Below are positions 11,456-31,217 of a DNA stretch of 32,538 nt, piece by piece. A model generated the notes under the pieces. The model worked only from the letters and a program-made list of their open reading frames with translations. It had not been told where the DNA came from and made no database searches. This stretch comes from Nocardia ninae NBRC 108245 (GTDB lineage Bacteria > Actinomycetota > Actinomycetes > Mycobacteriales > Mycobacteriaceae). The stretch lies in the NCBI RefSeq assembly GCF_007990755.1, contig NZ_BJXA01000089.1, forward strand, positions 1 through 32,538, read 5' to 3'. Each line of letters begins with the position of its first letter. Position 1 is the stretch's first letter. The position numbers and the translations under genes were made by a program.

Positions 11456-11524
11456 CGCGCCGCCCAGTGAGTGAGGCATGTCCGTGCGCGGCGCACATTA
11501 ACCCGGTATGGTCAGACGAGTTAG

Positions 11525-11543: not shown

Positions 11544-11580
11544 AGGTGACCCGCAGGTGCGCGAGTGAGGTGGTTCGGAT

Positions 11581-12237
11581 ATGTCAGAGGCAACGCCGTT
11601 CTCGAAACAGATCCGTAGCGCCACCGAGCAGCAGCACGCGGAGGCGGAGAACTCCCGGTTCATGAGCGACATGCTCGGCGGGGCGCTCGGGGTCGACTCG
11701 TATCACCGCTACACCGGCCAACTCTGGTTCATCTATCGCGCACTGGAGAGCCGCTGGGACACCCTGAGCGAAGACCCGATCGCCGGTCCGTTCATCCGGC
11801 CCGAACTGGCCCGCACCGCCGAGCTCGAACGCGATCTCGCCCACCTCATCGGCCCGGACTGGCGCGCCGGACTCGAACCACTCCCCGCCACCGCTGCCTA
11901 CGCCGCGCGCATCGACGAGTGCGCCCGGGACTGGCCCGCCGGCTACATCGCGCACCACTACACCCGCTACCTCGGCGACCTCTCCGGCGGACAGGTCATC
12001 CGCGGTACCGCGGAGAAGCTGTGGAACCTGCCGCACCGCGGCGACGGCGTCCGCTTCTACGTCTTCGACGGCGTCGGCAACCCGGCCGCGTTCAAGCGCG
12101 AATACCGCAGCCTGCTCGACCAGCTGCCGCTCGACGATCTCGAGCGCCGCCGCGTGCTCGACGAGGGGCAGCGCGCGTTCGCGATGAACACCGCGCTGTT
12201 CCAGGAACTCGCGCAGGAGTTTCCGGCCGCTCAGTAG
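11581..12237 (+). CDS. hmuO: Haem oxygenase (biliverdin-producing)
   Basis: A 218-residue cytoplasmic enzyme that opens haem with oxygen to give biliverdin, carbon monoxide and Fe2+. Its length matches corynebacterial HmuO (about 215). The proximal haem ligand is His19 in the TEQQHAEAEN segment. The distal helix motif LGDLSGGQ is at 131-138, with the two flexible glycines 136-137 and Asp133, equivalent to the residue that organises the catalytic water network. The upstream iron box implies induction under iron starvation, so the role is iron release from host or environmental haem. No haem uptake genes are adjacent. The last seven bases overlap the convergent initiating-transferase gene. Confidence 0.95.
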   Translation: MSEATPFSKQIRSATEQQHAEAENSRFMSDMLGGALGVDSYHRYTGQLWFIYRALESRWDTLSEDPIAGPFIRPELARTAELERDLAHLIGPDWRAGLEPLPATAAYAARIDECARDWPAGYIAHHYTRYLGDLSGGQVIRGTAEKLWNLPHRGDGVRFYVFDGVGNPAAFKREYRSLLDQLPLDDLERRRVLDEGQRAFAMNTALFQELAQEFPAAQ

Positions 12238-13742
12238 GCGCCCGCGCCGCGGGTCACCGCGCCGATCGTCCTGGCGATGAGCAGCAGGTCCAGCACCATG
12301 GACCAGTTCTCCACGTACGAAAGGTCCAGCCGCACCGAGTCTTCCAGCGAGAGGTCCGAGCGCCCACTGACCTGCCACAGCCCGGTGACCCCGGGCTTGA
12401 CCAGCAGCCTGCGCCGCATCTCGCCGTCGTAGCTGTCCACCTCACGCTGCACCTGCGGGCGCGGCCCGACCACGCTCATCTCACCGCGCAGCACGTTGAA
12501 GAACTGCGGCAGCTCGTCCAGGCTGAACTTGCGAATGATCTTGCCTACCGGCGTGATACGCGGGTCGTCCTTCATCTTGAAGAAGACCGGATTGCCCCCG
12601 TGCCGCGCGATGAGCGCGTCCACGCCCGCCTCCGCCTCGACATACATGCTGCGGAACTTGATCATCCGGAAGGGCTTGCCGCCCCGCCCGATTCGCTCGG
12701 ACAGATAGAACACCGGCCCCGGACTGGTCAGTTTCACCGCCAGCGCGATGGCCAGCATCGTCGGCGCGATCAGCACCAGCACCGCGGCCGCGAAGCACAT
12801 GTCGAACACCGCCTTGCCGGTCGACTTGGCGCGGTCGTATTGCGGTTTGGCGATGTGCAGCATCGGCACTCCCGCGACGAAACGATTGGTCAGTCGGGTG
12901 CCCGCGATATCGACGACGCCGGGCGCGACGATCAGCTCGACGCCGAGCGGGTCGAGTTCCCAGGCCATCCGCCGCAGTTCGACCGGGCCGAGGTGATCGG
13001 TCGCGGTGACCGCCACAGTGTCGGCACCGCTGCGACGCACCGCGTCGAGCACCGTGCGGTCGCTGCCGACCACGGAGAACGTGTGCCCCGAGGGCTCCCG
13101 GATGTACTCGGTGATCTCGTTGAGCCCGTTCGGAATACACACACCGACCACCCGGTATCCCGAGGCCGGGTCGCGGGCGAAGGCGTTCGCCATCGCCTGC
13201 GCCGCCTCCGCGCAGCCGACGACGAGGACCGAGGTCCGGTACTCCCCCCTGGCGCGCAGCTGTCGCGCGTGGATGCGCCACAGCAATCTGTTGAGCATCA
13301 GTCCGAACAGACCGAGCGGTAGTGCAATCGCCAAATAGCCACGAGCGAACTCGATCTGGAAAACCAGTGACAAGATCGCGAGCACGCCGAACAAGCGCAG
13401 CGTCGCGGCGACCAAGCGCCGGTACTCCTCGCTGCCGCTGCCGACCACCTGGGGCGACCGGGTGTTGCCCACCGCGAGGAAACCGGCCCAGCTCAGCGCG
13501 AGCACGCCGGAGACGACCGTGTACCCCACTTCGTAGGGCAGGTGCCAGGCCAGCGGCGGCGCGGCGGGCCCGCCGAACCGGATGATCTGCGCCAGCGCCA
13601 CCGCAACCACGATCACGGCGAAATCGGTTGCGCCTATCCGTTTTACATACTCGGCTTGCCATCGTTCACGCTCGGAGCGCGGCATACTGTGCGGCGATCG
13701 ACGATAGTCCAGATCGTCGTCGTCGGTGAGCTCGTAGCTCAT
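12231..13742 (-). CDS. Membrane initiating sugar-phosphate transferase (polyprenyl-phosphate)
   Basis: A 503-residue WbaP/CpsE-type enzyme that moves a sugar-1-phosphate onto undecaprenyl or decaprenyl phosphate, the first step of repeat-unit assembly. The N-terminal half has four to five membrane helices and a Rossmann-like domain (SVLVVGCAEAAQAMANAF). The C-terminal bacterial sugar transferase domain, after one helix, has KFRSM, SLDELPQ, SVVGPRP, GVTGLWQVSGRSD and the closing YVENWS segment. The frame is open to 13814, but ATG 13742 has GGGGGAGG nine bases upstream and gives a normal acidic N-terminus. Its neighbours are sugar-modifying genes on the other strand. Which sugar it loads is unknown. 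Confidence 0.92.
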   Translation of the reverse strand: MSYELTDDDDLDYRRSPHSMPRSERERWQAEYVKRIGATDFAVIVVAVALAQIIRFGGPAAPPLAWHLPYEVGYTVVSGVLALSWAGFLAVGNTRSPQVVGSGSEEYRRLVAATLRLFGVLAILSLVFQIEFARGYLAIALPLGLFGLMLNRLLWRIHARQLRARGEYRTSVLVVGCAEAAQAMANAFARDPASGYRVVGVCIPNGLNEITEYIREPSGHTFSVVGSDRTVLDAVRRSGADTVAVTATDHLGPVELRRMAWELDPLGVELIVAPGVVDIAGTRLTNRFVAGVPMLHIAKPQYDRAKSTGKAVFDMCFAAAVLVLIAPTMLAIALAVKLTSPGPVFYLSERIGRGGKPFRMIKFRSMYVEAEAGVDALIARHGGNPVFFKMKDDPRITPVGKIIRKFSLDELPQFFNVLRGEMSVVGPRPQVQREVDSYDGEMRRRLLVKPGVTGLWQVSGRSDLSLEDSVRLDLSYVENWSMVLDLLLIARTIGAVTRGAGAY

Positions 13743-14233: not shown

Positions 14234-15520
14234 TTGTTATGTCGACTGTGTGATTCCGAGCGCTTGACGAGCGTGCTCGATTTGGGAGCGACGCCGCCGT
14301 GCGAGAAATTTCTCGCGCCGGACGAACTCGACCTTCCCGAACCAACCTACCCGCTGCATCTTCGGCTGTGCACGGACTGTCTGCTGTTGCAGATTCCGGC
14401 ATTGATCACTCCCGCGGAGACGTTCACCGAGTACGCGTATTTCTCGTCGTACTCCGACAGCTGGGTGCGGCACGCGCAAACCTTTGTCGCACAGGCGATC
14501 GAGCGGCTCGGCCTGACCGCGCAATCCTTCGTCGTCGAGGTGGCGAGCAACGACGGCTACCTGCTGCGGCACGCGGTGGCGGCGGGCATCCCCTGCCTCG
14601 GCGTGGAGCCCTCGGTGAACGTCGGCGACGCCGCGCGGGCGGCGGGCGTACCCACCGAGACCACCTTCCTGGACGAGGACTCGGCCGCGAAGATTCGTGC
14701 GGCACACCGGCCCGCCGACCTGGTGGTCGCCAACAACGTGTACGCGCACGTGCCCGATCTGCGCGGCTTCACCCGGTCGCTGCGCGAGCTGATGGCCGAC
14801 GACGGCTGGCTCTCGATCGAGGTGCACCACGCGCTGAACCTGTTGCGACTCGGCCAGTTCGACACGATCTACCACGAGCACTTCCAGTACTACACCGTGC
14901 ATTCGGCGCAGTGGGCGCTGGCGACTGCCGGTCTGTCGGTCGTCGATGTCGAGCTGCTCGACACCCACGGCGGCTCGCTACGCCTGTGGGCCCGCCCTAC
15001 CCCGCTCGGCGCCACCCCGACCAGCCGGGTAGCCGACGTGCTTCGCTTGGAGCGGGAGGCGGGCCTGCACCAGGCCGACGGCTACACGCAACTGCGCCCG
15101 CGCACCGAGGCGGTTCGCCACGACCTGCTGCGCTTCCTGCTCGACCAGCGCGCCGCGGGCAAACGCGTCGTCGGCTACGGCGCACCGGGCAAGGGCAACA
15201 CCCTGCTCAACTACTGCGGCATCCGCACCGACCTGCTCGAGTACACCGTCGACCGGAATCCCTACAAGCACGGACGCTTCACCCCGGGGACCCGGATCCC
15301 GATCCACGCACCCGACCGGATCGAGCTCGATCGACCGGACGTCGTGCTGGTGCTGCCGTGGAATCTGGAAACCGAGATCACCGCGCAACTGCGCCATATC
15401 GCCTCGTGGGGAGCCGAATTGGTCTACCCGCTTCCGGCACTGCATCGTGCCGATCTCACCAGTCACAACGAAGTGAACAGCGCTACACATTCAGGAAAGA
15501 CAGGGAGGGGAGCGCGATGA
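14234..15520 (+). CDS. SAM-dependent sugar C-methyltransferase, zinc-binding type
   Basis: A 428-residue enzyme of the TylC3/TcaB9-like group, which methylates a carbon of a nucleotide-linked keto-sugar. An N-terminal zinc site is formed by CxxC pairs (Cys3, Cys6 and Cys46, Cys49). The SAM motif is EVASNDGY at 102-109. YHEH at 213-216 followed by FQYYT is the family's active-site motif (Tyr, Glu and His in TcaB9). The C-terminal domain has VVGYGAPGKGNTLLNY. The frame opens at GTG 14183, but TTG 14234 follows AGAAGG at good spacing and gives the usual short N-terminus before the first CxxC; both starts are possible. It is the first of five cassette genes and its stop overlaps the next start (ATGA). 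Confidence 0.88.
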   Translation: MLCRLCDSERLTSVLDLGATPPCEKFLAPDELDLPEPTYPLHLRLCTDCLLLQIPALITPAETFTEYAYFSSYSDSWVRHAQTFVAQAIERLGLTAQSFVVEVASNDGYLLRHAVAAGIPCLGVEPSVNVGDAARAAGVPTETTFLDEDSAAKIRAAHRPADLVVANNVYAHVPDLRGFTRSLRELMADDGWLSIEVHHALNLLRLGQFDTIYHEHFQYYTVHSAQWALATAGLSVVDVELLDTHGGSLRLWARPTPLGATPTSRVADVLRLEREAGLHQADGYTQLRPRTEAVRHDLLRFLLDQRAAGKRVVGYGAPGKGNTLLNYCGIRTDLLEYTVDRNPYKHGRFTPGTRIPIHAPDRIELDRPDVVLVLPWNLETEITAQLRHIASWGAELVYPLPALHRADLTSHNEVNSATHSGKTGRGAR

Positions 15521-16293
15521 AGGTTGTGCTGTTCTGCGGCGGGTACGGCATGCGGATGCGTGACGGGACCGACGACATGATTCCGAAACCCATGCAGCTC
15601 GTCGGCCCACGACCGCTGCTGTGGCATGTGATGCGTTATTACGCGCACTTCGGGCACAAGGAATTCATCCTGTGTCTCGGCTACGGCGGTCTGCACATCA
15701 AGAATTTCTTTCTGACCTACCAGGAATCGGTGTCCAACGACTTCGTCATGCGGGACGGCCGGGTGGAAATGCTGCGCTCCGATATCAACGACTGGCAGAT
15801 CACCTTTGTCGACACCGGCGTGGAATCGCCCATCGGCGAGCGGCTGCGCCGGGTCCGCGAACACGTCGGAAGTGACGAGCGTTTCCTGGCGAACTACGCC
15901 GACGTGCTCACCGACGCACCGCTGGACGACATGATCGAGAAGTTCACCGAGTCCGGCGCGGCCGCCTCGATGATGGTGGTGCCGCCGCAATCGTCGTTCC
16001 ACTGCGTGGACATGAAGCCGACCGGTGAGGTCAAGGAGATCATGCCGGTGTCGCGAATGCCGTTGTGGGAGAACGGCGGTTACTTCGTGCTGAACCAGGA
16101 GATCTTCGATCTGCTGCCGCCGGGCGGCGATCTGGTCGCGGACGCGTGCGGCACCTTGGCCGGGCAGGGCCGGCTGTTCGGCTATCGGCATCTCGGCTTC
16201 TGGAAGCCCGCCGACACGTTCAAGGAGCGCGCCGAACTCGACGCGGGCTACCGCAGCGGCGCACGGCCCTGGATGGTCTGGGAGCACGCGTGA
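15517..16293 (+). CDS. Sugar-1-phosphate nucleotidyltransferase, RfbF-like
   Basis: A 258-residue enzyme that joins a sugar-1-phosphate to a nucleotide, giving the NDP-sugar for the cassette. The N-terminal signature is FCGGYGMRMRD with IPKPM following, and the LCLGYGG and IKNFF segment near 55-65 is characteristic of glucose-1-phosphate cytidylyltransferases. A good GGGAGGGG ribosome-binding site lies inside the end of the upstream gene, and the start overlaps that stop as ATGA. The close match in pattern to RfbF suggests CTP and glucose-1-phosphate, but nucleotide and sugar choice cannot be proved by reading. The start of the PIG-L gene overlaps its stop (GTGA). Confidence 0.87.
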   Translation: MKVVLFCGGYGMRMRDGTDDMIPKPMQLVGPRPLLWHVMRYYAHFGHKEFILCLGYGGLHIKNFFLTYQESVSNDFVMRDGRVEMLRSDINDWQITFVDTGVESPIGERLRRVREHVGSDERFLANYADVLTDAPLDDMIEKFTESGAAASMMVVPPQSSFHCVDMKPTGEVKEIMPVSRMPLWENGGYFVLNQEIFDLLPPGGDLVADACGTLAGQGRLFGYRHLGFWKPADTFKERAELDAGYRSGARPWMVWEHA

Positions 16294-16940
16294 TCCGACT
16301 CGGCGTCGGAGCGGTCGCCGAGATCGCGGTGCTCGGTGCGCACTGCGACGACATCGCCATCGGCATGGGCGCGACGCTCCTGACACTGGCTGGCGCGCAC
16401 CCGGGACTGCGGGTGCGCGCCCTGGTCCTGTCCGGCGGCGGGACCGCGCGGGCGGACGAGGAAAGCCTTGCGCTGGCCGCGTTCTGCCCGGGTGCCGAGC
16501 TCGACCTCACCGTGCTCGACGTACCCGACGGCCGGGCTCCCGCGCACTGGGACCGAATCAAGGACGCGCTCAGTGCTTTTCGTGGCAGCACCGAACCCGA
16601 CCTGGTCTTCGCCACGCAACGCGGCGACGCGCATCAGGATCATCGGCTGCTGGCCGAGTTGGTGCCGACCGAGTTCCGCGATCACCTCGTGCTCGGCTAC
16701 GAGATCCTCAAGTGGGAGAGCGACACTCCCAGTCCCAGCGTCTACCACCGGATCACCGCGGCGCTCGCCGCGGAGAAGGCCCGGCTACTACTGAAGCACT
16801 ATCCGTCCCAGGCCCACCGGGACTGGTTCGACGAGCAGGCGTTCACCGGCCTGACCCGGCTGCGCGGCGTGCAATGCCACGCCGGGCACGCCGAAGCATT
16901 CGTGCTCGACAAGGCAGTCATCGATTTCGGAGGTTCGTAA
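16290..16940 (+). CDS. PIG-L-family deacetylase
   Basis: A 216-residue zinc hydrolase of the family that removes N-acetyl groups from sugars (MshB, PIG-L). The first metal motif is AHCDD at 17-21, where AHPDD is usual, so His18, the probable base Asp20 and the ligand Asp21 are kept and Pro is replaced by Cys. The second motif HQDH gives His115 and His118. GTG 16290 overlaps the upstream stop by four bases. Its place inside a nucleotide-sugar cassette suggests it unmasks an amino sugar or trims another acyl group. No aminotransferase is present, so the nitrogen would have to come from an N-acetylated precursor. Confidence 0.86.
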   Translation: MIRLGVGAVAEIAVLGAHCDDIAIGMGATLLTLAGAHPGLRVRALVLSGGGTARADEESLALAAFCPGAELDLTVLDVPDGRAPAHWDRIKDALSAFRGSTEPDLVFATQRGDAHQDHRLLAELVPTEFRDHLVLGYEILKWESDTPSPSVYHRITAALAAEKARLLLKHYPSQAHRDWFDEQAFTGLTRLRGVQCHAGHAEAFVLDKAVIDFGGS

Positions 16941-16943
16941 GCC

Positions 16944-17990
16944 ATGCGGGTACTCGTCACCGGACACCAGGGGTATCTGGGCACCGTCATGGTGCCGGTC
17001 CTGCGGGCCAACGCGCACGAGGTGGTCGGTCTGGACGCCGGCTTCTTCGCCGACTGCGTCCTCGGCGACCTGCCGGGCGACCCGCCCGGCCTGGCCGTGG
17101 ACCTGCGCGATGTGACCGTCGACCAGCTGCGCGGCTTCGACGCGGTCATCCATCTCGCCGCGCTGTCCAATGATCCGCTCGGCGCGCTGGCGCCCGAGAT
17201 CACCTACGCCATCAACCATCACGCGTCGGTGCGGCTGGCCCGGCTCGCCAAAGAGGCCGGGGTGCGGCGGTTCCTGTACGCCTCCACCTGTTCGGTCTAC
17301 GGCGCCGCGGGCGCGGACCTGGTCACCGAGGATGCGCCGCTGCGGCCGATCACCCCGTACGCGGAGAGCAAGGTGCGGGTCGAGGACGATGTCGCCGCGC
17401 TCGCGGACTCCGGCTTCTCCCCCGTATTCCTGCGCAACGCAACGGCATTCGGCTTCTCGCCACGGTTGCGGGCCGACATCGTGCTCAACAACCTGGTCGG
17501 CTACGCCACGCTGACCGGCGAGGTGAAGGTGCTCTCCGACGGCACCCCGTGGCGGCCGCTGGTGCACGCCCGCGATATCGCGTGGGCCTTCGCCAACTGT
17601 CTCACCGCTCCCCCGGCGGCAATCCACTGCCGCGCCTTCAACATCGGCACCGAGGCCAACAACCTCACCGTCGCCGATATCGCGCAGGCGGTGGTGGCGG
17701 CGGTGCCCGGGTCGCGGCTGAACATCACCGGCGAGAGCGGCGCCGACCCGCGCTCCTATCGCGTCGATTTCTCGGCCGCCCGCGCCGCCATCGGTTTTCG
17801 CGCACTGTGGACCGTGCAGGCCGGGGCGGACGAGCTGTTCCAGGAGTACACCGCGCGTGGCCTCACCTACGACGACTTCTTCCAGAAGTTCACCCGGCTG
17901 CCGCACCTGGAGAAGTTACGCGACAGCGGGGTGCTCGATGGGACGATGCGCCGGATACAGCCCGGACCCGCTCGTGTGCCAGCCACTTAG
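16944..17990 (+). CDS. NAD-dependent nucleotide-sugar epimerase/dehydratase (extended SDR)
   Basis: A 348-residue extended short-chain dehydrogenase. The N-terminal TGHQGYLG at 6-13 binds the dinucleotide, and the acidic Asp31 at the end of the second strand favours NAD. The catalytic triad region is ASTCSVYG at 113-120, with Tyr139 and Lys143 in the YAESK motif. The family carries out 4-epimerisation, 4,6-dehydration or 4-keto reduction of NDP-sugars. No second SDR is in the cassette, so this enzyme probably makes the keto intermediate that the methyltransferases need. It begins three bases after the PIG-L stop, with GGAGG upstream. It is followed by an 86-bp gap, the only sizeable one in the cassette. 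Confidence 0.9.
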   Translation: MRVLVTGHQGYLGTVMVPVLRANAHEVVGLDAGFFADCVLGDLPGDPPGLAVDLRDVTVDQLRGFDAVIHLAALSNDPLGALAPEITYAINHHASVRLARLAKEAGVRRFLYASTCSVYGAAGADLVTEDAPLRPITPYAESKVRVEDDVAALADSGFSPVFLRNATAFGFSPRLRADIVLNNLVGYATLTGEVKVLSDGTPWRPLVHARDIAWAFANCLTAPPAAIHCRAFNIGTEANNLTVADIAQAVVAAVPGSRLNITGESGADPRSYRVDFSAARAAIGFRALWTVQAGADELFQEYTARGLTYDDFFQKFTRLPHLEKLRDSGVLDGTMRRIQPGPARVPAT

Positions 17991-18076
17991 ACGGGCGGCT
18001 CCGGCGCAGCGTCGACGGCGGTCGGCCACGGTGCCATGCGTGCGGCCCGCACCGGCGCACCACGAAAGGGCCGGTG

Positions 18077-19189
18077 ATGGTTCCCCTCGATAGCGGGCGA
18101 CCCTGCCGGGGTTGCGGGGGCACCGAGCTCACGACGGTGCTCGATCTGGGTATGGTCCCGGCCGCGGACTACTTTCCGCCGGCGGCCGCGCCGGTCGGCC
18201 TCGCCGAGACGGCGCATCCGCTGCGCATGGATCTGTGCGCGCGCTGCGCTCTCGCGCAACTGGCCGAGGACGACACCCGCACGCAGGAACCACGCGGCAT
18301 CGAGCCTGCGGCGTTGCGCGAACAAGCGGCCGACGCCGTCGCGCGGGTCGCCGAATCCGGTCTGCTGCACGGGAATACGGTGCGCGAGTTCGGCAGCCCG
18401 CACGGGGGCACCTGGGTGCCCCTGCTGACCGAGCGCGGCTACACCCAGACCGAGGGTGTCGCCGATGTGATGCTCGACTGTTTCGGCCTTATGCACGAGC
18501 CCGACCAGCGTGCCGCCATCACCGAGCGGGCAGCGGCCACCGCGCCCGGCGGCCTGCTGTTGATCCAATTCCATTCGCTGGCCACGATCGTCGCCTCGCG
18601 CCAGTGGAACGCATTGCGGCACGGGCACTTTGCCTACTATTCGCTGTCCGCGCTGAGCCGATTGCTGGCCGCCGCGGGCATGAGCGTCACCACCGCGTGG
18701 CGGTTCGACCTGTACGGCGGCACCGTGCTGGTCGCTGCCCGCCACGGCACGCATCGCCCCGACGCGGCGGCGCGCGACATCCTGACCCAGGAGTCCGCCT
18801 ACACCGAGGTCGCCGCCGTCCGCGGCCTCCAGCAGGCTGCCGACGTACACGCCGAGGCGTTGCGCCGCTGGCTCACCAGGCATGCCGCACAGGGTGATCG
18901 GGTGTTCGCCTACGGCGCGGCGTCGCGTGCGGTGGCGCTGTTCAGTCTGGCGGGTGTCGATCGCGGGTTGATCGCCGCCGTCGCCGACGCGTCACCGGCC
19001 AAGCAGGGTCGCCGGATGCCGGGCACCGACGTGCCCATCATCGCGCCCGAGGAACTGGTCACGGCCCGACCGGATCTCGTGCTGCTGACGCTGCCCGATC
19101 TGCTGCCGGAGGTCCGCGCCCGCTACCCGGAACTCGACGGCTGCTGGATCGTCGACGACCCGGCCGACACCACCGTGCAAGGAGGCTGA
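18077..19189 (+). CDS. Divergent SAM-methyltransferase-like protein, zinc-binding type
   Basis: A 370-residue relative of the first cassette gene. The zinc site is retained (Cys10, Cys13, Cys54, Cys57) and so is the C-terminal domain (VFAYGAASRAVALFSLAG). However, the SAM loop reads EFGSPHGG at 104-111, where the paralogue has EVASNDGY, and the active-site YHEH is replaced by RHGH at 181-184. The fold is therefore kept while the catalytic Tyr and Glu are gone, so it may use a different chemistry, bind another cofactor or act as a partner of the first enzyme. ATG 18077 (or GTG 18074) follows AAAGGG. The longer open frame from 17549 overlaps the SDR gene and is not real. Confidence 0.82.
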   Translation: MVPLDSGRPCRGCGGTELTTVLDLGMVPAADYFPPAAAPVGLAETAHPLRMDLCARCALAQLAEDDTRTQEPRGIEPAALREQAADAVARVAESGLLHGNTVREFGSPHGGTWVPLLTERGYTQTEGVADVMLDCFGLMHEPDQRAAITERAAATAPGGLLLIQFHSLATIVASRQWNALRHGHFAYYSLSALSRLLAAAGMSVTTAWRFDLYGGTVLVAARHGTHRPDAAARDILTQESAYTEVAAVRGLQQAADVHAEALRRWLTRHAAQGDRVFAYGAASRAVALFSLAGVDRGLIAAVADASPAKQGRRMPGTDVPIIAPEELVTARPDLVLLTLPDLLPEVRARYPELDGCWIVDDPADTTVQGG

Positions 19190-20119: not shown

Positions 20120-20959
20120 TCAGACCAGGAGATCCGGCCGGTTCCGCACGGTGGCCACCGTGCGAACCCGCAAGCGGTACAACGCCGCCCGCGCCAAGCG
20201 GGTATCCCCCGCCAGCACGTCGCCGCGGCTCACCAGGTGCGGATAGTCGCCCGCGATGCGGTGATGGAACCGGTACATGTCGGTCAGCTTGCTCACCGTC
20301 GAGGTGCGGCTGCACAGGTTGAACGACGAATTGCGCCAGGCCGCAAGGATTTCCGACATCCCGAAGAACCCGCCGAACGAGGACACCCTGGCGAACAGGT
20401 CGACGTCCATCGGGAACACCAGATCGCCGCGCAACCCGCCGACCAGGTCGAAGTGCTTGCGGTAGAACATCGCCGCAGCGGTCGGCCCGAAATCGGCCGG
20501 ACCGCGCCGCACGATGACCCTGGCCAGGGCCCGCGCGGTCTGCTTGCCGAGCAAACCGGCCAGTCCCAGGCCGGTTTCGAGCACCTCGCCCGCCTCGTCG
20601 ATCACCTCGAAGCGACTCGACGAGATGGCGATCGAGGGATCGTCGGCCATCACCGCGAGCTGCGCGGCCAGCGCACCGGGCCGCAGCACATCGTCGGCAC
20701 AGACCACCTTGACCAGATCCCCGGTCGACGCGGTGATCGCCTTGTTCCAGTTGTCCCCGATCGGTAGCACGGTGTCGTTGCGCAGCACCCGAATTCGCGG
20801 ATCGTCGATCCCGTGTGCGATGTCACCCGTCTCGTCGGTGCTGGCGTTGTCCAGCACCAGAAGTTCGAAGTCCACGTCCTGGTCGAGCACCGAGCGCAGT
20901 GTCGTGGCCAGCGTGCGTCCCGAGTTGTAGGCAGGCACGCAAACCGACAAACTAGCCAT
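20120..20959 (-). CDS. Glycosyltransferase family 2
   Basis: A 279-residue inverting sugar transferase of the GT-A fold that acts on the cytoplasmic face. The start SLSVCVPAYNSGRTLATTL is the classic first strand and helix of GT2. LLVLDNASTDET binds the nucleotide, and VVCADD at 85-90 supplies the metal-binding acidic motif. The region around FPMDVDLFARV (about 183-193) corresponds to the acceptor-side catalytic acid segment. No membrane helix is visible. The ATG follows GGGGGA, with three bases between the stop of the pyruvyl-transferase gene and this start, so the two form an operon that probably extends and decorates the same repeat unit. Confidence 0.92.
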   Translation of the reverse strand: MASLSVCVPAYNSGRTLATTLRSVLDQDVDFELLVLDNASTDETGDIAHGIDDPRIRVLRNDTVLPIGDNWNKAITASTGDLVKVVCADDVLRPGALAAQLAVMADDPSIAISSSRFEVIDEAGEVLETGLGLAGLLGKQTARALARVIVRRGPADFGPTAAAMFYRKHFDLVGGLRGDLVFPMDVDLFARVSSFGGFFGMSEILAAWRNSSFNLCSRTSTVSKLTDMYRFHHRIAGDYPHLVSRGDVLAGDTRLARAALYRLRVRTVATVRNRPDLLV

Positions 20960-20962
20960 GAT

Positions 20963-22342
20963 CTATCCCCCTAGCTGATGGCCCGGCCGCACCGGTCCGC
21001 TTTCCACCAGCCGGAAGACCCGTTCGAGCCCGGCCCGGCTGGCGTCGATCTGCTGGACGGCCTTCTGCTGCAACGTATCCCGCAGTGTCGGCGCCTCGGA
21101 CCACGACTCTGTCACGGCCGTGGTCAGCGTCCGGTCCAGCGCGGGGTCATCGAGGTGCACGATCCGCAGTCCGGTGCCGAACATCTGGCGCAGGCCGTGG
21201 AACTTGTCGTCGTAGTACTCCGAGGCGGTGATGCCGACGGCCGGAATGCCTTGGGACAGCGCGAAAACCGCGAGATGGTAGGCACTGGTGACCAGCACCC
21301 GGCACCCCGCGACCTGACGCGCGACATCCTCGGGCGTGCCGCCACGGCCGATGGCAGGCCTGGCGCACTCCGCTCCGGCGAGCAGCGGCAAGGTGGATAG
21401 TCGATCCTCGGAGGCGTATTCGGAGATGATCAGCGGCACCACCCCGGCGTCGAGCTGGCCGGCGCACGCGCGGACCACCCGGCCGAGCGTGGCCTGCGCG
21501 GCCGCGCTGACCCGTGAATAGTCGGCCACCCGCAGGCACAGTCCGATATCCGCGCCGATCTTGGCCTGCCGCAGGCGGTAGCCGAATTCGATCGCGTCGT
21601 CACCGGTGACCAGTACCCGTTCCGGTGCGACGCCGAAGCGCGACAACAGTTCCGGGCCACGCCTGGCTTCGCGCAGCGCCAGGAAATCGACGCCGGGCAA
21701 CACCTCGGACGCGCGGCGGACCAGCGCCGGATCACGCAGCGGTCCGAGGCCCTGGCCGACCAGGGCCGTCGGAATGCCCCGGGACCGCGCGTGTTCGAGC
21801 AGGTTCAGCGTCCGGTGCGCCTGATAGCGGTCGACGTCGGTCATGTAGCCACCGCCGAGGGCGAGCACCAGGGAGGCCTGCTCGACGGCGGCCGGGATCT
21901 CCACCGGGAACTCGGTCTCCTCCGGTGTCGTGACGTGTTCGGTGCGGCCGGGGCCGTCGGCGCGGCGCCGGGCGGCCGAGCGCAACGCCCGCAGCCGGTC
22001 CTTCGGTCCGTCGGTCGCGGCCCGCCAGCGCAGCGCCGCCGGGCCGACCAATCGTGTTCCGGCCGTACGGTTTAGGCGGCCGGGCCAGCTGTCGCGGCCC
22101 CAGCTCCAGTCGGGCCCGCACAGCGGTTCCGCCTCGGGCAGCAGCGCCTGCAGGATGCCGGGTTGATGGGTGAGCACGCCGATCCTGGCGCGCGGCCAGC
22201 GTGCCCGCAGCCGCTCGACGGTCACCGCCATCATCGCGATGTCGCCGCGGTTACGCAGCCAGTACTCACCGTTCTCGACCAGCACTCGGATATCGCCCTC
22301 GGCGATAGCGGCGCGCTCGGCCTCGGAACCTACGGTCCCCAC
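20963..22342 (-). CDS. Polysaccharide pyruvyl transferase family protein
   Basis: A 459-residue CsaB/WcaK-type enzyme that puts a pyruvate ketal from phosphoenolpyruvate onto a surface sugar, adding negative charge. The N-terminal NRGDIAMMAVTVERLRARWP is the hallmark of the family, followed by LALGGGYMTD, and near the C-terminus SAYHLAVFALSQGIPAVGI, matching the conserved His segment. A basic, low-complexity linker (about 105-135) is longer than usual. The GTG at 22342 has GGGAGG upstream at good spacing. It is the first gene of a two-gene minus-strand operon with the GT2 gene. Other members act as general PEP-dependent transferases, so the exact acceptor is open. Confidence 0.88.
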   Translation of the reverse strand: MGTVGSEAERAAIAEGDIRVLVENGEYWLRNRGDIAMMAVTVERLRARWPRARIGVLTHQPGILQALLPEAEPLCGPDWSWGRDSWPGRLNRTAGTRLVGPAALRWRAATDGPKDRLRALRSAARRRADGPGRTEHVTTPEETEFPVEIPAAVEQASLVLALGGGYMTDVDRYQAHRTLNLLEHARSRGIPTALVGQGLGPLRDPALVRRASEVLPGVDFLALREARRGPELLSRFGVAPERVLVTGDDAIEFGYRLRQAKIGADIGLCLRVADYSRVSAAAQATLGRVVRACAGQLDAGVVPLIISEYASEDRLSTLPLLAGAECARPAIGRGGTPEDVARQVAGCRVLVTSAYHLAVFALSQGIPAVGITASEYYDDKFHGLRQMFGTGLRIVHLDDPALDRTLTTAVTESWSEAPTLRDTLQQKAVQQIDASRAGLERVFRLVESGPVRPGHQLGG

Positions 22343-23163: not shown

Positions 23164-23224
23164 CGCTGGACCTTTCTCGTCATCTCCGCATTGTCTCCCA
23201 TGGCGAGCGACCGTCTGCTAAATA

Positions 23225-25186: not shown

Positions 25187-26275
25187 GTGACGGAAAGTAC
25201 CGAGATCGTCCGGGTGCACATGACGGGATCCGAGTGGTTCGCGTCCGCGCCGGGTGGGCTCAACCGGTACTTCACCGAGCTGTTCCACGCGCTCGCCAGG
25301 CAACCCGGCGCGGAGGTGTCCGCCGCGGCTTTCGGCGCGCCCGCCCCCGGTGCCCGATCATGGGGCAGGCTGGGCGGTTCCACGGTGCGCCGGGCCAGCA
25401 CCGCCTTCCTCGATCGCGACGAGCTGCGCCCCGGCACGGTGCTCGACCGGCACTTCTGCCTCTACGGGCCGGCCGCCGTCGCCCGGCACGGACGGCTCCC
25501 GCTGGTCGTTCACTTCCATGGGCCGTGGGCGGCCGAGAGCCGGCTCACCGGGCAGAGCGCGGCGGCGGCGCGCGCGAAGTATCTGATCGAACGCCTCCGC
25601 TACCTCGGCGCGGACCGATTCGTGGTGCTGTCCAACCACTTTCGCGAGGTACTACATACCGACTACCGGGTTTCCCTGGACCGCATCGCGGTCATCCCGC
25701 CCGGCGTCGACCTGACCCGCTTCGACGCCTCCCCTATCCGACCCGAGACGCGAACCGTGCTGTGCGTCCGCAGGCTCGAACACCGGATGGGGATCGATAC
25801 CCTGCTGCGCGCCTGGCCCGGTGTGCTCGACGAGCATCCGACGGCGCGACTGGTAATCGTCGGCACCGGCACGGCCGAGGCCGAATTACGCGCCGCCGCA
25901 ACATCACTCGTTGACACCGTCGAGTTCGCCGGGCACGTCGACGATCAGCGGCTCACCGAGCTCTACGAGCAGGCGCAGTTGACCGTCGTGCCCACCACCG
26001 CGCTGGAGGGCTTCGGCCTGATCGCGCTGGAATCGCTGGCTGCGGGGCGCGCGCCGATCGTCACCGACTGTGGCGGACTACCGGATTCGGTGCGCGGGCT
26101 CGATCCGTCGCTCATCGTCCCCGCCGGTGACGCCGACGCGCTCGGGGCCCGCCTGGTCGCCGGATTGCACGGCACCGTGCCCACCCCCGCACAATGCCGG
26201 GCCCACGCGGAGACCTTCTCCTGGGATGTCACAGCCGAGCGGCATCTCGCGATGTACCGGGCAATCAGGCAATGA
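25187..26275 (+). CDS. Glycosyltransferase family 4
   Basis: A 362-residue retaining sugar transferase with two Rossmann domains (GT-B fold). The N-terminal acceptor domain has the GGLNRYFTELFHAL loop, and the domain junction is IPPGVDLTRFD at 170-180. The C-terminal donor domain includes LVIVGTGTAEAEL and the EX7E motif Glu274-Glu282 (EGFGLIALE), which binds the donor nucleotide-sugar. The GTG at 25187 follows an AGTAGGGGG sequence. It is the first gene of a plus-strand operon running to the right edge, and its stop overlaps the next start (ATGA). It should add one sugar to the lipid-linked repeat unit in the cytoplasm. Confidence 0.92.
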   Translation: MTESTEIVRVHMTGSEWFASAPGGLNRYFTELFHALARQPGAEVSAAAFGAPAPGARSWGRLGGSTVRRASTAFLDRDELRPGTVLDRHFCLYGPAAVARHGRLPLVVHFHGPWAAESRLTGQSAAAARAKYLIERLRYLGADRFVVLSNHFREVLHTDYRVSLDRIAVIPPGVDLTRFDASPIRPETRTVLCVRRLEHRMGIDTLLRAWPGVLDEHPTARLVIVGTGTAEAELRAAATSLVDTVEFAGHVDDQRLTELYEQAQLTVVPTTALEGFGLIALESLAAGRAPIVTDCGGLPDSVRGLDPSLIVPAGDADALGARLVAGLHGTVPTPAQCRAHAETFSWDVTAERHLAMYRAIRQ

Positions 26276-27453
26276 CCACGGCACTGTTCGTGGCCCACAC
26301 CGCGGCGCCCTCCGGCGCCGAGCTCGCCACCTTGCGACTGGTGTCGGCCCTACGCGACCAGGGGCGGCTCGGCGTCGCCATGGTCTACACAGCGGACGGC
26401 CCCTTGGTCGAACGGATGCGCGCACGCGGGATCGAAACCCGCGTGCTGCGTGGCCGATTCGACAGCCGCGCGATGACCATCGGTTCCGGCCCGCTCCGCC
26501 TGGTCGCCGGATTCGCCGCTCTGCTGCGGCTCGGCTGGTCGCTCGGCGCGACCGCCAAAGAGCTCGGCGCGCACGTCGTGGTGGCGGAGAGCAGCAAGGC
26601 GCTGGTGATGGGTGCGGTGGCCGCGCGGCGTGCCCGCGTTCCGCTGGTCTGGCAGGTGCACGATCGCCTCGCCCGCGACTACTTCGGGCGACTGCCCACC
26701 CTCGTGCTGCGGCTGCTCGGGCGGCTGTTCAGCCGCGGCTATCTCGCCAACAGCCGCACCACGCTGGCCACCCTGCCGGTCGGACGCAGGCCCGCGCTGG
26801 TGGCCTATCCGGGGGTCGAACTCGGCCCTGATATCCCCCGTCGGGCTCAACGTCCGCCCGCCGACACCGTGGTCGCCGTGGTCGGCCGGTTGTCACCCTG
26901 GAAGGGCCAGGACGTGCTGCTGCGTGCCCTCGCCGCCGCGAAAGTCCGTCCGCGACAGGTGTTCCTGATCGGCGGCACGTTCTTCGACGAAGAGCCGTAC
27001 CGCGCCGAACTCGAACGTCTTGCCCGCGAACTCCAGTTGCCGGTGACTTTCACCGGCCACGTCGACGACCCCGCCGAATACCTGCGTGACACCGACATTC
27101 TGGTGCACAGCTCGGTCCTTCCCGAACCGTTCGGCCAAGTGGTGGTCGAGGGCATGCACGCGGGCTGCGCCGTCATCGCCAGCACGCCGGGAGGTCCCGC
27201 CGAGATCGTCCAGCCCGGTGTCGACGGGTTACTCGTACCAGGCGGCGACGAACGACGACTCACCGCCGCACTCGACACCCTCATCGGCGACCCAGCACTG
27301 CGCACCAGACTGGCCACGGCGGCCCGCACGCGCGCCAAAGACTTCGACATCACCGAAACGGCGCACACGGTCGCCACCTTCCTCTACGACATCGCACAAC
27401 GCAACGGCGCGGCGGGCACCCCCCATTCAGCAGAGAGAGCCCCGCATGGCTGA
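26272..27453 (+). CDS. Glycosyltransferase family 4 (second)
   Basis: A 393-residue GT-B enzyme. The N-terminal loop is APSGAELATLRLVSAL, the linker AYPGVELGPD at 178-187, and the donor domain starts VVAVVGRLSPWKGQDVLL. The EX7E motif is Glu285-Glu293 (EPFGQVVVE). ATG 26272 overlaps the preceding stop as ATGA; the frame is open further upstream, but that part overlaps the first GT4 gene. The stop overlaps the flippase start by eight bases. It adds a second sugar to the same acceptor series, as its operon position suggests. Confidence 0.92.
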   Translation: MTTALFVAHTAAPSGAELATLRLVSALRDQGRLGVAMVYTADGPLVERMRARGIETRVLRGRFDSRAMTIGSGPLRLVAGFAALLRLGWSLGATAKELGAHVVVAESSKALVMGAVAARRARVPLVWQVHDRLARDYFGRLPTLVLRLLGRLFSRGYLANSRTTLATLPVGRRPALVAYPGVELGPDIPRRAQRPPADTVVAVVGRLSPWKGQDVLLRALAAAKVRPRQVFLIGGTFFDEEPYRAELERLARELQLPVTFTGHVDDPAEYLRDTDILVHSSVLPEPFGQVVVEGMHAGCAVIASTPGGPAEIVQPGVDGLLVPGGDERRLTAALDTLIGDPALRTRLATAARTRAKDFDITETAHTVATFLYDIAQRNGAAGTPHSAERAPHG

Positions 27454-28810
27454 ACACGCGGACCAGCACGACCCGGACCGTTCACCCGCTCCACCCGGAG
27501 CGCACCGCCGAAATATCAAGCGCCGCCACGGCTTTCTCGGGATCGTTCGCGACATCGGCTATGTCAGCTTCGGCAAGTACGGGCAGTACGTCGTCACCAT
27601 CGTGACGGTGCCGCTGATCGCCCGCGTACTGGGCGCGCACGGTCTCGGCCTGCTCGCGATCGGCATGTCGGCCTATTTCATCGGCTCGCTGCTGGTCGAT
27701 CTCGGCATCACCTCGTACCTGGCCGCGCGGGTGCACGACGCTGGCCTCGGCGACGACCGGCTGGCGCACATCAATCAGCTGCGCGGCGACTACCTGGCCA
27801 TCCGCACGACCACCCTCGGCGTCCTCGGCGTCGCGTTGCTGCTCAGCTACGCGCTCGGCGCACCGGTGCATCTGGAGATGATCCTGCTCGGGCTGTTCGC
27901 GGGCGGCTTCTGGTCGGTGTCGGAAGACTGGTTGCTCATCGGGCAGGGGCGCTTCGGCGCCTCCACCGCCTATCAAGCCGTCGGCCGCATCGGGTACCTC
28001 GCGCTGCTCGTGGCGGTGCTCCCCCGCGTGCCCAATGCCCAGGTCGCGGTGCTGTGTCTGCTCGTCTCGTCCATTCCGACCGTGCTGCTGACCTGGTGGG
28101 ATTCGTTGCGCACCTTCGGGCTGCCGTCGCGGCCGCGCGACGTGCGGACCGTGTTACGTACCGGCGCACCGGTTTTCACTTCTCGTCTGTTGGTGACCAC
28201 CTACGGGCAAGGTGCGGCGGCGGTGTACTCGGGCGTGCTCGACGCCGTGTCGCTCGGGCTCTATTCAGCGGGCGACCGGTTGGTCCGCGCCATCCAATCC
28301 ACCCTGGACCCCATCGGTTTCGCCCTGCTACCGCGGATGGCGCGCAAGAGCGCCGACGACAACTTCTGGCGGCACGCACTCCAGGCCCTGGCCGCCTGCG
28401 TCTGCACCGCGACGGTGGCGGCCGCCGCGGTATGGCTGGCCGCGCCCATGCTGATCCATCTGGTGTTCGGCAAGGACTTCACCGCCGCGATCGACCTGCT
28501 GCGGGTGGAGACGTTCGTGCTGCCCGCGACGGCGATCACCTCGTTCGTCACCACCGCCGTGCTCCCGGTGCGCCAGGACACCACCGGCGTCCTGATCGGC
28601 GCGGTGCTCGGCACCTGCGTGGCGGCCACGGCACTGGCCATCGCGTTCCGCACCCACTCGGTGTGGACGCTGGTCTACGGCACCGTGATCGTCGAATTCA
28701 CCGTCGCCGCTTGGTATCTGCTCAGGATCCGCACACTCATCCGCCGTGAGCGGGTAACACCCGCTCCGGATCCCGCGATTGTGCTGATGCGGGAGGACGG
28801 CGGGACATGA
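27446..28810 (+). CDS. Wzx-like polysaccharide flippase
   Basis: A 454-residue membrane protein of the polysaccharide-transporter (MATE/Wzx) superfamily, expected to flip the lipid-linked repeat unit across the inner membrane. A hydrophilic, His/Pro-rich N-terminus of about 30 residues precedes 12 hydrophobic helices. The first helix region (SFGKYGQYVVTIVTVPLIARVLGAHGLGLL) is typical of Wzx, and the YSAGDRLVRAIQSTLDPIGFALLPRMAR segment in the second half matches the second repeat. ATG 27446 has AGAGAG upstream; the longer frame from 27086 is a shadow of the GT4 gene. It is co-translated with the genes on both sides. Confidence 0.9.
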   Translation: MAEHADQHDPDRSPAPPGAHRRNIKRRHGFLGIVRDIGYVSFGKYGQYVVTIVTVPLIARVLGAHGLGLLAIGMSAYFIGSLLVDLGITSYLAARVHDAGLGDDRLAHINQLRGDYLAIRTTTLGVLGVALLLSYALGAPVHLEMILLGLFAGGFWSVSEDWLLIGQGRFGASTAYQAVGRIGYLALLVAVLPRVPNAQVAVLCLLVSSIPTVLLTWWDSLRTFGLPSRPRDVRTVLRTGAPVFTSRLLVTTYGQGAAAVYSGVLDAVSLGLYSAGDRLVRAIQSTLDPIGFALLPRMARKSADDNFWRHALQALAACVCTATVAAAAVWLAAPMLIHLVFGKDFTAAIDLLRVETFVLPATAITSFVTTAVLPVRQDTTGVLIGAVLGTCVAATALAIAFRTHSVWTLVYGTVIVEFTVAAWYLLRIRTLIRRERVTPAPDPAIVLMREDGGT

Positions 28811-29820
28811 GAATTCTCTATCTTGGCGACGACTGGGTCGGCAGCAATGCCCACTCACTGGCCGACGGCTTCCGACAGGCCGGGCACGACGTCGTGGTCA
28901 TCGACACGACCCGGGTTACCCTGCCGACCAGACTCTCGCCGCCCTGGGTGTATTCGAAGCTGGCCCGCAAGCGCGCGCCGTGGAACGTGGCCGGGTTGCA
29001 CGCCGACATCGACCGGGCCGCCGCCGTGTTCCAGCCGGACATGTTGTTCGCGTTCAAGAGCATTCATTTCGACCAGCGCAGGCTGCTGGACGTCCCCGCG
29101 CGGCTGCACGTGCACTACAGCCCCGACGACGTCGCGAACCCCGAGAATGTCAGCGCGGAATACCTTGCGCACGAGGCCGACTGGGACCACATCGTCACCA
29201 CCAAACGCCACAATGTCGCCGAACTGCGCGACCGCGGCGCCCGCGCCGTCACCTTCGTGCGCAGCGCCTACGACCCGGCCTGGCACCACCCCACCGCGCG
29301 GCGCGGCACCCGGCAGTTCCTCGTCGGCTTCATCGGCGTGCGCCGCCCGGACCGCCGGGCCGAGCTGGTCGAGCTCGCCAGTACGCACGGCTCCCGCATG
29401 CTGGTGCACGGGCCGGGCTGGCGCCGGGTGCCCGAATTGCGCGCCACCGGAGCCGAAGTCGGCGGCGCCGTGTACGGCGAACGCTACTCGGAGGTGGTCG
29501 CGAGCGTCACCGCCAACCTGGTCCTGCTCAACTCCGACAACCGCGATACGCACACCTGCCGCACCTTCGAAGTGCCTGCCGCCGGTGGGCTTTTCGTCGG
29601 CGAACGCACCGACGAGCACGCCGAACTGTTGCAGGACACCAGCGAGTGCTTCCTGTTCACCGGGGCCGACGAGCTGAGCTCCATCCTGGACTGGTGCGCC
29701 GCGCATCCCGACAAAGCGGCCGCGGTGGCCGAGGCCGGGTACCAGCGCATCGTCGCGAGCGAGCACCGCTACGTCGACCGGGCCCGCGAGATCGTGCGCG
29801 CGGTCAGTGACCGCTCATGA
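28807..29820 (+). CDS. CgeB-like glycosyltransferase
   Basis: A 337-residue cytoplasmic protein of the CgeB/DUF3880-type GT-B group. The N-terminus MRILYLGDDWVGSNAHSLADGF, the central LHVHYSPDDVANPEN and the donor-side TCRTFEVPAAGGLFVGERTDEHAELL are characteristic. The last part corresponds to the donor-binding region, although the classical EX7E is replaced by an E-V-P-A-A-G-G loop, as is common in this group. The ATGA overlaps at both ends show tight coupling with the flippase and polymerase genes. It likely adds another residue or a side sugar to the repeat unit; donor and linkage are unknown. Confidence 0.83.
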   Translation: MRILYLGDDWVGSNAHSLADGFRQAGHDVVVIDTTRVTLPTRLSPPWVYSKLARKRAPWNVAGLHADIDRAAAVFQPDMLFAFKSIHFDQRRLLDVPARLHVHYSPDDVANPENVSAEYLAHEADWDHIVTTKRHNVAELRDRGARAVTFVRSAYDPAWHHPTARRGTRQFLVGFIGVRRPDRRAELVELASTHGSRMLVHGPGWRRVPELRATGAEVGGAVYGERYSEVVASVTANLVLLNSDNRDTHTCRTFEVPAAGGLFVGERTDEHAELLQDTSECFLFTGADELSSILDWCAAHPDKAAAVAEAGYQRIVASEHRYVDRAREIVRAVSDRS

Positions 29821-31217
29821 CAGCCACCACCGAGGTCCTGCTGATCGCGCTCGCGCTGGCCACGATCGTGGTGGCCGCCAGCACGATTCCCGGCGTCGCG
29901 CGGGTGTTCCTCATCGCGCAGGCGGCGTTCTGGTCGCTGTCGTATCTGGCGCGCCCGCTCGTGCTGCTGTGGGTGCAGCCCGAACCGCACTTCGGTGACA
30001 ATGTGGCCGACCCGCGGCTGGCCCAGTTCGGCTACGACCGCGGCATCGCGCTGGTGCTGGAGCACGTCGCCTTCGGCCTGTGGGTCTACGCGGGACTCGT
30101 TGTCGCCTATGCGTTCTGGGCTCGGCGGCATCCGCCCGTCAAGCTGCCCGCACTGACCGGCGATCCGAATTTCGTGCCGACCCTGGTGGCCACCTATGGC
30201 GTGGGACTGTTCGGCCGGGCCGCCTCCGTCGCCTCCGGTTCGGTCGGCGGCGCGGGCGAGATCGGCAGCGCCAATCCGATCCTGTCGTTCGTCGCCATCC
30301 TGGCCACCATCTCCGCCCTCGGGCTGATCATTTTCGTCCGCCCTGCCCGCCCGCAGCTGACCGCCCTGATCATCGGCGGGTTGCTCATGGGTGAGCTGGC
30401 CTGGACCGCCGTTGTCGAGTCGAAGACGCCCATCATCGGTGCCGCACTTGCCATCGCCATCCGCTTCGCGATCCTCGGGTGGACCAAGACCAAGGCGATC
30501 TCGGTCGGCGCCATCGCGGTGCTCGGCGTCGGCGGGTTCGGTTGGTTGCAGTCGCTGAAGCAGACCGAGTACGCGAAAGCCGAAGCAGCACTGGTCGATT
30601 CGAGTTATCCGCCGGTCGTCCAGCCCTTCCTGAGCATTCTGCGACGGTTCGATCTACTCGAGGCCGCGACCGACGCCTACTTCCACCAGCCGGGCCTGTG
30701 GCTGTCGCCCGTCGAGACGCTGCGGCATGCCGCGGCCAGCCTGGTTCCCAGTCAGCTGCTCGGCACGGCCAAGTTCCAGTCCGGCACCGCGTGGGCGCAA
30801 GATGTGCGCGGCGCGTCGGTCGACATGACCAGGGTGTCGGTGTCGCTGGCCGAGGGCAATCTCAACGAAGGCTATGTGCTGGGCGGCTATCCGGGCGTGG
30901 GCATCTGTGCCGTCTTCACCTTTCTGCTGCTGCTCGCCTGGGCCAGGGCGTTATATTCGCGCGTGTTCCCGATCGTGGTGCTCGGGCTCGCGATGACCGG
31001 CTCCTCCGCGCTGTTCGAACGCGGGATTCTCGGCAGCATGGAGAATCTCGGCAAATTCCTGCAAGCCGCCGTGCTCGCCTGGCTCATCTCGCTGGTCGTC
31101 CGCGAATACCGCAGGCGCACACAGACTGATCTACCGTCCGCGGAGCGACCACCTGCTGCGGAACCTGTTGTCGTCGGGGCTGTCACTACCGAAAAGAGAG
31201 AATCCCCATGGGATTGA
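29817..31217 (+). CDS. Wzy-like polysaccharide polymerase
   Basis: A 466-residue integral membrane protein with about 10-12 hydrophobic helices and one larger outer loop (about 245-350) containing KQTEYAKAEAAL and the FHQPGLWLSPVE segment. The sequence is poorly conserved, as is usual for Wzy. The call rests on topology, loop position and context between a flippase, a glycosyltransferase and a Wzz protein. It would join flipped repeat units on the outer face of the inner membrane. The start overlaps the previous stop as ATGA and its end overlaps the Wzz gene by ten bases. The hydrophilic C-terminal tail is Arg/Pro/Glu-rich. Confidence 0.75.
   Translation: MTATTEVLLIALALATIVVAASTIPGVARVFLIAQAAFWSLSYLARPLVLLWVQPEPHFGDNVADPRLAQFGYDRGIALVLEHVAFGLWVYAGLVVAYAFWARRHPPVKLPALTGDPNFVPTLVATYGVGLFGRAASVASGSVGGAGEIGSANPILSFVAILATISALGLIIFVRPARPQLTALIIGGLLMGELAWTAVVESKTPIIGAALAIAIRFAILGWTKTKAISVGAIAVLGVGGFGWLQSLKQTEYAKAEAALVDSSYPPVVQPFLSILRRFDLLEAATDAYFHQPGLWLSPVETLRHAAASLVPSQLLGTAKFQSGTAWAQDVRGASVDMTRVSVSLAEGNLNEGYVLGGYPGVGICAVFTFLLLLAWARALYSRVFPIVVLGLAMTGSSALFERGILGSMENLGKFLQAAVLAWLISLVVREYRRRTQTDLPSAERPPAAEPVVVGAVTTEKRESPWD

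Follow-up and report, generated by a model that had tools for sequence, protein, structure and literature searches.

A conserved gene cassette in Nocardia ninae that probably opens a pathway to a nucleotide-activated branched C-methyl amino sugar

What sugar could be made by a cassette that joins two methyltransferase-like genes to genes for a nucleotidyltransferase (NT), a deacetylase and a short-chain dehydrogenase/reductase (SDR)? The question is raised by positions 14234 to 19189 of contig C89 of Nocardia ninae NBRC 108245, which was analysed over its full length of 32,538 nucleotides (1-32538, hereafter the window) and belongs to a genome of 9.7 Mb whose closest named relative is Nocardia suismassiliense (97% identity in NT). 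A first-pass annotation of this DNA had suggested an unusual, methylated and possibly amino nucleotide sugar, and the analysis presented here supports that suggestion. We consider, with a probability of about 0.6, that these genes begin a conserved pathway whose product is a nucleotide-activated, probably cytidine diphosphate (CDP)-linked, branched C-methyl amino sugar destined for a surface polysaccharide of the Wzx/Wzy type.

The cassette and its conservation

The cassette consists of the following parts, in which SAM stands for S-adenosylmethionine:

14234..15520, + strand, MT1, predicted SAM-dependent sugar C-methyltransferase of the MtmC/TcaB9 type (428 amino acids, TTG start; PF08421/PF13489/PF08484, Methyltransf_13/23/14)
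15517..16293, + strand, NT, RfbF-like sugar-1-phosphate nucleotidyltransferase of a separate clade without the EKP motif (258 amino acids; TIGR02623)
16290..16940, + strand, PIG-L/LmbE-type deacetylase (216 amino acids; PF02585)
16944..17990, + strand, extended SDR (348 amino acids; PF01370)
17991..18076, no strand, 86-base gap, the site of an RmlC-type epimerase gene in most relatives by locus comparison
18077..19189, + strand, MT2, TcaB9-fold protein with a shortened SAM lobe (370 amino acids)

Five consecutive genes of these types had been named in the first-pass annotation, and coordinates, common + strand and domain matches bear this out, as they do its statement that the first three junctions are overlapped or nearly so: read from the sequence, MT1/NT and NT/PIG-L overlap by 4 bases each, PIG-L and SDR are 3 bases apart, and the gap before MT2 is the 86 bases listed above. 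For MT1 and MT2, where the gene caller placed the starts further in, we adopted the starts that retain the first two zinc cysteines.

To ask whether the genes travel together, as the first-pass annotation had required of its own proposal, we used the best 80 loci from an NT-profile search of genome contigs (named loci; the spread beyond them is undercounted) and scored gene content within flanks of at most 8 kb, with some loci cut by contig ends. MT1 was present in 74 of them, PIG-L in 76, SDR in 76, the epimerase in 70, MT2 in 61 and a class-III aminotransferase in 23. Since the first four genes occurred together in 70 of the 80 loci and all five in 60, the cassette is not a chance arrangement. 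The five genes, at first taken for the whole set, are only part of it, because the epimerase and the aminotransferase also belong to it.

The set recurs in Nocardia, Rhodococcus, Mycobacterium, Tsukamurella, Gordonia, Streptomyces and rhizobia. For example, plasmids of Tsukamurella and Gordonia carry all seven genes, with the aminotransferase overlapping MT2, and plasmids of Neorhizobium and Agrobacterium carry the aminotransferase, SDR, a DUF4910 gene, an opposite-strand epimerase, MT1, NT and PIG-L, again with 4-base overlaps along MT1/NT/PIG-L. On these rhizobial plasmids tblastn matches of 35-52% identity confirmed SDR, MT1, NT, PIG-L, epimerase and aminotransferase, while an MT2 gene of its own was not seen in the Neorhizobium and Agrobacterium sets. 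The absence of MT2 from Streptomyces loci was scored within 8 kb only.

A few observations were made alongside this survey. Rhizobial plasmid loci L189, L191 and L193 have the set beside polysaccharide export genes or a lipopolysaccharide biosynthesis gene; Sinorhizobium and Rhizobium top the list of plasmid matches, mostly below 60% identity; and an unannotated stretch of an Indioceanicola plasmid (L192) contains SDR, MT1, NT and PIG-L at 42-54% identity. In Nocardia aurea one locus (L070) has NT with no MT1, PIG-L or SDR nearby, and a five-gene cassette lies elsewhere in the same genome (L085). A mycobacterial subtype lacking MT1 (L104, L111, L114, L118, L122 and L149) was considered and dropped after a check of one of the six, L149, which proved an edge effect, with MT1 and a second methyltransferase-like stretch lying about 9.5 kb further along in genome G192. 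The argument that PIG-L works without methylation was given up because the lack of MT1 in L149 was this edge effect.

MT1 and MT2

Compared with solved structures, MT1 matched MtmC (4rv9, E=4.7e-77) and TcaB9 (3ndi, E=4.1e-59). The TcaB9 active-site residues, taken from the mutants named in PDB titles, are Y76, H181, Y222, E224 and H225; they correspond to Y67, H172, Y213, E215 and H216 of MT1 and were kept in 87, 83, 86, 86 and 86 of 87 aligned sequences, respectively. MT1 has the sequence features looked for in TcaB9/KijD1/MtmC enzymes, namely the four-Cys zinc site, the SAM motif and all five active-site residues. It is most likely a SAM-dependent sugar C-methyltransferase of the MtmC/TcaB9 type, predicted to act on carbon of a 4-keto nucleotide sugar.

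MT2 had been taken for an ordinary methyltransferase, a reading that its sequence does not support. It has the four-Cys zinc site and the overall TcaB9/KijD1/MtmC fold, and it skips the stretch matching MtmC 134-167, which is part of the SAM lobe. In 60 of 60 sequences R181 and G183 stand at the positions of TcaB9 Y222 and E224, and the Y76 segment is absent. MT2 thus resembles the enzyme class of MT1 in zinc site and fold but has an incomplete SAM lobe and has lost three of the five active-site residues (Y76, Y222, E224). The idea that it had simply lost SAM motif I was rejected, since a joint alignment and profile showed the motif modified but present (E-F-G-S-P-H-G-G); it is the stretch after the motif that is missing. 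Invariant in MT2 are S107-PHGG, H140 and R181-H-G-H184. MT2 keeps the body of a nucleotide-sugar methyltransferase, with usual SAM binding unlikely, and would serve as a non-methylating enzyme or a partner protein.

A bolder proposal, tentative when its two parts are taken jointly, is that MT2 would be a new kind of nucleotide-sugar enzyme, a former C-methyltransferase that now acts on the same keto sugar by base-driven chemistry, such as an epimerisation or isomerisation, by way of its invariant residues, and that the pathway would lead to an unreported CDP-(2,)4-amino-3-C-methyl-hexose that keeps its 6-OH and is common to actinobacterial and rhizobial surface polysaccharides. A conserved MT2 with a shortened SAM lobe is a testable example of enzyme re-use for new chemistry.

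Activation, deacylation and oxidation

The best NCBIfam match of NT was TIGR02623 (RfbF) at 190 bits, below the curated cut-off of 300, and its nearest solved structure was RfbF itself (1tzf, E=6.8e-49). The EKP motif of true RfbF, which we presume to be ligand-binding, was found in none of 97 distinct NT relatives of at least 48% identity, compared to 18 of 18 sequences below 42% found in those same searches; it was also absent from three rhizobial NTs at 43-44% identity. In a 47-row tree (26 NT relatives out of the 97, including all those below 60% identity, the 3 rhizobial and the 18 canonical sequences), the canonical RfbF sequences split from the NT clade at 100/100 support. The sugar accepted by NT may differ from glucose-1-phosphate, because the EKP motif is absent, and a simple start from CDP-glucose, as the first-pass annotation could be read, was not borne out. 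PIG-L carries the motifs AHxDD and HQDH at 97% or more in 88 sequences, and the overlap or adjacency of NT and PIG-L is kept from Nocardia to Agrobacterium. This coupling suggests an N-acylated precursor.

For SDR the best solved match was 6vo6 (E=1.7e-26), which we take to be the C4-dehydrogenase Cj1427, followed by MoeE5 at 1.4e-22, and all its NCBIfam matches were below their cut-offs. Its active site reads S-T-CSVYG, with C and S in at least 97% and T in 75-90% of 89 sequences; 4,6-dehydratases have T-D-E at the position of its T-C-S. TIGR02622, the model of CDP-glucose 4,6-dehydratase, was not among the 17 NCBIfam matches of SDR at E<=0.001, and no match to it was found in the whole genome at E<=1e-20. 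The same TIGR02622 search in 14 control genomes gave a match in 9 and one over the cut-off in 1. By these motifs and matches SDR looks like a C4-dehydrogenase and not a 4,6-dehydratase, although the closeness of the MoeE5 match means that it may also be a 4-epimerase.

The epimerase and the aminotransferase

An RmlC-type epimerase gene was present at the locus in 53 of the 60 five-gene named loci. In 50 it separates SDR from MT2 and runs on the opposite strand, in 1 it separates them on the same strand, and in 2 it lies elsewhere at the locus. A second cassette, on contig C36 of N. ninae, has kept it. On that contig (L146, L176) the cassette and epimerase are joined by an aminotransferase, a flippase and a Wzz-type gene in a second polysaccharide locus, a paralogue of the one in the window, and its cassette proteins are 67-80% identical to those of the window. 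Because most relatives and the C36 cassette keep the epimerase gene, it seems to have been lost from the window copy. The short SDR/MT2 junction also occurs in N. suismassiliense (L066), 92% identical over 191 bases; comparison with L067 gave short matches only (best 36 bases), which leaves the ends of the loss undefined. The C36 epimerase matched PF00908 at 180.8 bits and TIGR01221 at 150.9, just below the cut-off of 155.75, and epimerase matches in PDB include NovW and PCZA361.16. A dedicated epimerase (E<=1e-60) was found in 64 of 66 Nocardia genomes with NT and in 0 of 32 without. As a side observation, in genome G042 the dedicated epimerase (C1:241176-241751) lies more than 4 Mb from NT.

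The first-pass annotation had noted no aminotransferase and only one SDR. This is right for the cassette and for all 28 predicted genes of the window, but not for the locus, whose aminotransferase lies at 760-2127 of contig C80. It is assigned to the window locus because the unbroken locus of genome G079 has the same arrangement: there the gene order from flippase to Wzz-type gene is identical, and the locus continues to a pectate-lyase-like protein, a GNAT-domain protein, a class-III aminotransferase and a glycosyltransferase, counterparts of which open contig C80. We infer that C80 continues after the window. In locus L174 the genes between the Wzz-type gene and the aminotransferase encode a pectate-lyase-like protein (8643-10013) and a protein with two GNAT stretches (7252-8616).

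The aminotransferase belongs to NCBIfam PRK06209 (NF004856; 686.9 bits for the C80 copy against a cut-off of 486), for which the database name is glutamate-1-semialdehyde aminomutase. Of the 23 named loci showing it, 19 have it at most 200 bases from a cassette gene, these 19 coming from Streptomyces, Tsukamurella, Williamsia, Mycolicibacterium and Rhodococcoides, and it heads the set on the Neorhizobium and Agrobacterium plasmids, beside SDR, at 50-52% identity. Among 98 Nocardia genomes it was found in 65 of 66 with NT and in 0 of 32 without; for 59 of 74 Nocardia NT copies an aminotransferase copy lies on the same contig, always at 10.5-27.3 kb, and copy numbers of the two genes agree in 7 of 8 two-copy genomes. 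Adjacency across phyla is a better argument for its membership than the Nocardia profile. Sugar substrates for such an enzyme would have precedent, by analogy, in C-6' aminotransferases.

A proposed pathway and its alternatives

From gene content, co-conservation, motifs and folds we infer every chemical step, the step order and the product as follows. NT would activate a sugar-1-phosphate, not necessarily glucose-1-phosphate, and PIG-L, whose gene overlaps that of NT, would take off an acyl group, the precursor being perhaps an N-acetylhexosamine. SDR would then oxidise C4 with the 6-OH retained, and the epimerase would invert the 4-keto sugar at C3 and/or C5; in N. ninae this epimerase might come from the second cassette copy or be a housekeeping RmlC. 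MT1 would next move the SAM methyl group to a carbon adjoining the ketone (C3, or C5), after which the class-III aminotransferase would swap the ketone for an amine, which a GNAT enzyme may acylate in some loci. Glycosyltransferases, flippase and polymerase would build the polymer.

Several observations weigh against this pathway, and some of them favour an alternative in which the C-methyl sugar is not aminated. The cassette would then yield a branched sugar that is neutral (or 2-amino), and the aminotransferase would serve a different sugar within the polysaccharide. A search of the phylum sample that scored four candidates per genome detected the aminotransferase in 7 of 12 other NT-bearing genomes; a second, full search of six genomes, G110 not among them, recovered it from G271 but not from G192, G135, G214, G309 and G024. 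The lack in G024 may be an assembly gap, since its cassette is on a 3.5-kb contig. Where both genes share a contig in Nocardia they stand the 10.5-27.3 kb apart given above, and the Nocardia presence profile partly follows the whole locus, in genomes that are not independent and to which Fisher tests were applied with no correction for phylogeny. Relatives of the aminotransferase occur without this NT in G258 (56% identical) and G381 (41%), two genomes whose RfbF-like matches are only in the low-identity range. Among solved structures the aminotransferase is closest to true glutamate-1-semialdehyde aminomutases (E=7.6e-55), with C-6' aminotransferases only at 9.2e-29. We nevertheless regard a pathway without amination as unlikely, given that 19 of 23 loci have the aminotransferase no more than 200 bases away from the cassette, that two rhizobial plasmids have it beside SDR, and that the Nocardia profile is 65/66 against 0/32.

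The remaining objections concern the chemistry before amination. The choice of cytidine triphosphate (CTP) for NT comes from the RfbF name only, and the good matches of SDR to MoeE5 and GalE-type enzymes make 4-epimerisation by SDR possible. The epimerase gene is absent at the locus in the window and in 7 of the 60 five-gene loci (L066, L069, L085, L088, L100, L124 and L135), and no dedicated epimerase was found in two NT-bearing Nocardia genomes, G035 and G015 (the latter 78% complete). A modified form of the classical CDP-glucose route, in which RfbF is followed by a 4,6-dehydratase that is either SDR or encoded elsewhere, would lead to a 6-deoxy C-methyl sugar; RfbF is the nearest solved structure to NT, and CDP-linked C-methyl 6-deoxy sugars are known from Bacillus. 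The T-C-S of SDR in place of T-D-E, the lack of a TIGR02622 match in the genome at the threshold used and an NT without EKP make this quite improbable, and it would leave PIG-L unexplained. It also seems unlikely that PIG-L deacetylates the finished polysaccharide or a lipid-linked intermediate and not a nucleotide sugar: PIG-L enzymes do act on varied acceptors, and the gene is apart from NT in L140 and was not found in L125, but its coupling to NT persists from Nocardia to Agrobacterium. Finally, the biochemistry of the set, that is, the activity of its enzymes and the sugar they make, was not found in the literature of open-licence papers, which counts against the proposed amino sugar and, at the same time, agrees with the first-pass statement that the genes fit no standard pathway, no described route having been found there.

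Comparison with known systems

The set is real, well conserved and partly predicted in print. Its description as an undescribed pathway holds for the biochemistry, for which no account was found, but not for the neighbourhood: on the basis of the overlapping DUF4910/CA_C2195 neighbourhood in ten bacterial clades, Das et al. (2014; PMC4000134) had already proposed that a modified sugar is made for the cell surface. In that neighbourhood a sugar epimerase/dehydratase, nucleotidyltransferase, glycosyltransferase, N-acetyltransferase and SAM-dependent methylase are described from many phyla. The main text of that paper does not contain the words aminotransferase or deacetylase, and its section 10 names no 3,5-epimerase (PMC4000134). 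Streptomyces and rhizobial forms of the present set carry DUF4910, whereas the compared Nocardia loci had no DUF4910-cluster gene within about 8 kb, and no Pfam match to DUF4910 was found among the 28 predicted genes of the window.

Routes to dTDP-L-epivancosamine and related antibiotic deoxysugars combine a KijD1/TcaB9/MtmC C-methyltransferase, which works next to a ketone, with an RmlC-type epimerase and an aminotransferase, which for epivancosamine is of the DegT type. The present set likewise pairs a C-methyltransferase with a conserved active site with an RmlC-type epimerase and an aminotransferase, but differs in its RfbF-like NT, non-dehydratase SDR, class-III aminotransferase, PIG-L and polysaccharide locus. 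In Bacillus cereus, the operon for CDP-3-C-methyl-6-deoxyhexose (cereose) encodes a cytidylyltransferase, C-methyltransferase, 4,6-dehydratase and reductase. It shares the cytidylyltransferase and C-methyltransferase with the present set and, to our knowledge, has no PIG-L, aminotransferase or epimerase.

As described in the text of PMC10680097, the GDP-heptose (guanosine diphosphate-linked) route of Campylobacter jejuni uses the C4-dehydrogenase Cj1427, which gives the 4-keto heptose with alpha-ketoglutarate, a C3/C5-epimerase and a C4-reductase. It resembles our proposal in oxidising C4 without 6-dehydration before an RmlC-type epimerase acts, and 6vo6 is the best PDB match of SDR; it differs in its GDP-heptose, in having no C-methylation described and in reducing C4 in place of amination (PMC10680097). 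A table of PMC1413539 lists a Brucella run, BRA0429-0439/BMEII0827-0838, that is similar by annotation only, with aminomutase-like, 4-epimerase-like, opposite-strand 3,5-epimerase, methyltransferase and glucose-1-phosphate cytidylyltransferase entries. Databases split one pathway into possibly misleading names, such as glucose-1-phosphate cytidylyltransferase, glutamate-1-semialdehyde aminomutase and two methyltransferases. If its sugar were identified, a large number of surface-polysaccharide loci would gain an annotation in one step.

The surrounding polysaccharide locus

The other features of the window locus are listed here, with the number of loci in which the protein cluster occurs where this was counted:

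12231..13742, - strand, bacterial sugar transferase of the initiating glycosylphosphotransferase type (PF02397; cluster in 42 loci)
19422-20018, MspA-family porin gene directly after MT2 (cluster in 15 loci)
20120..20938, - strand, family-2 glycosyltransferase (PF00535; cluster in 30 loci)
20963..22342, - strand, polysaccharide pyruvyl transferase (PF04230)
22468-25070, TetR regulator and flavin amine-oxidase-type enzyme, interrupting the polysaccharide locus
25187..27453, + strand, two group-1 glycosyltransferases (PF00534)
27446..32491, + strand, Wzx-type flippase, glycosyltransferase, protein without Pfam match in the Wzy position and GNVR/Wzz-type chain-length protein (PF01943, PF13524, PF13807/PF02706)

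Because glycosyltransferases, a flippase, a protein in the polymerase position and a Wzz-type gene surround the cassette, the window locus is, judged by its gene content, a Wzx/Wzy-type surface-polysaccharide locus. Its upstream flank (window 9926-12237) holds genes for a ThrE-type exporter and a heme oxygenase.

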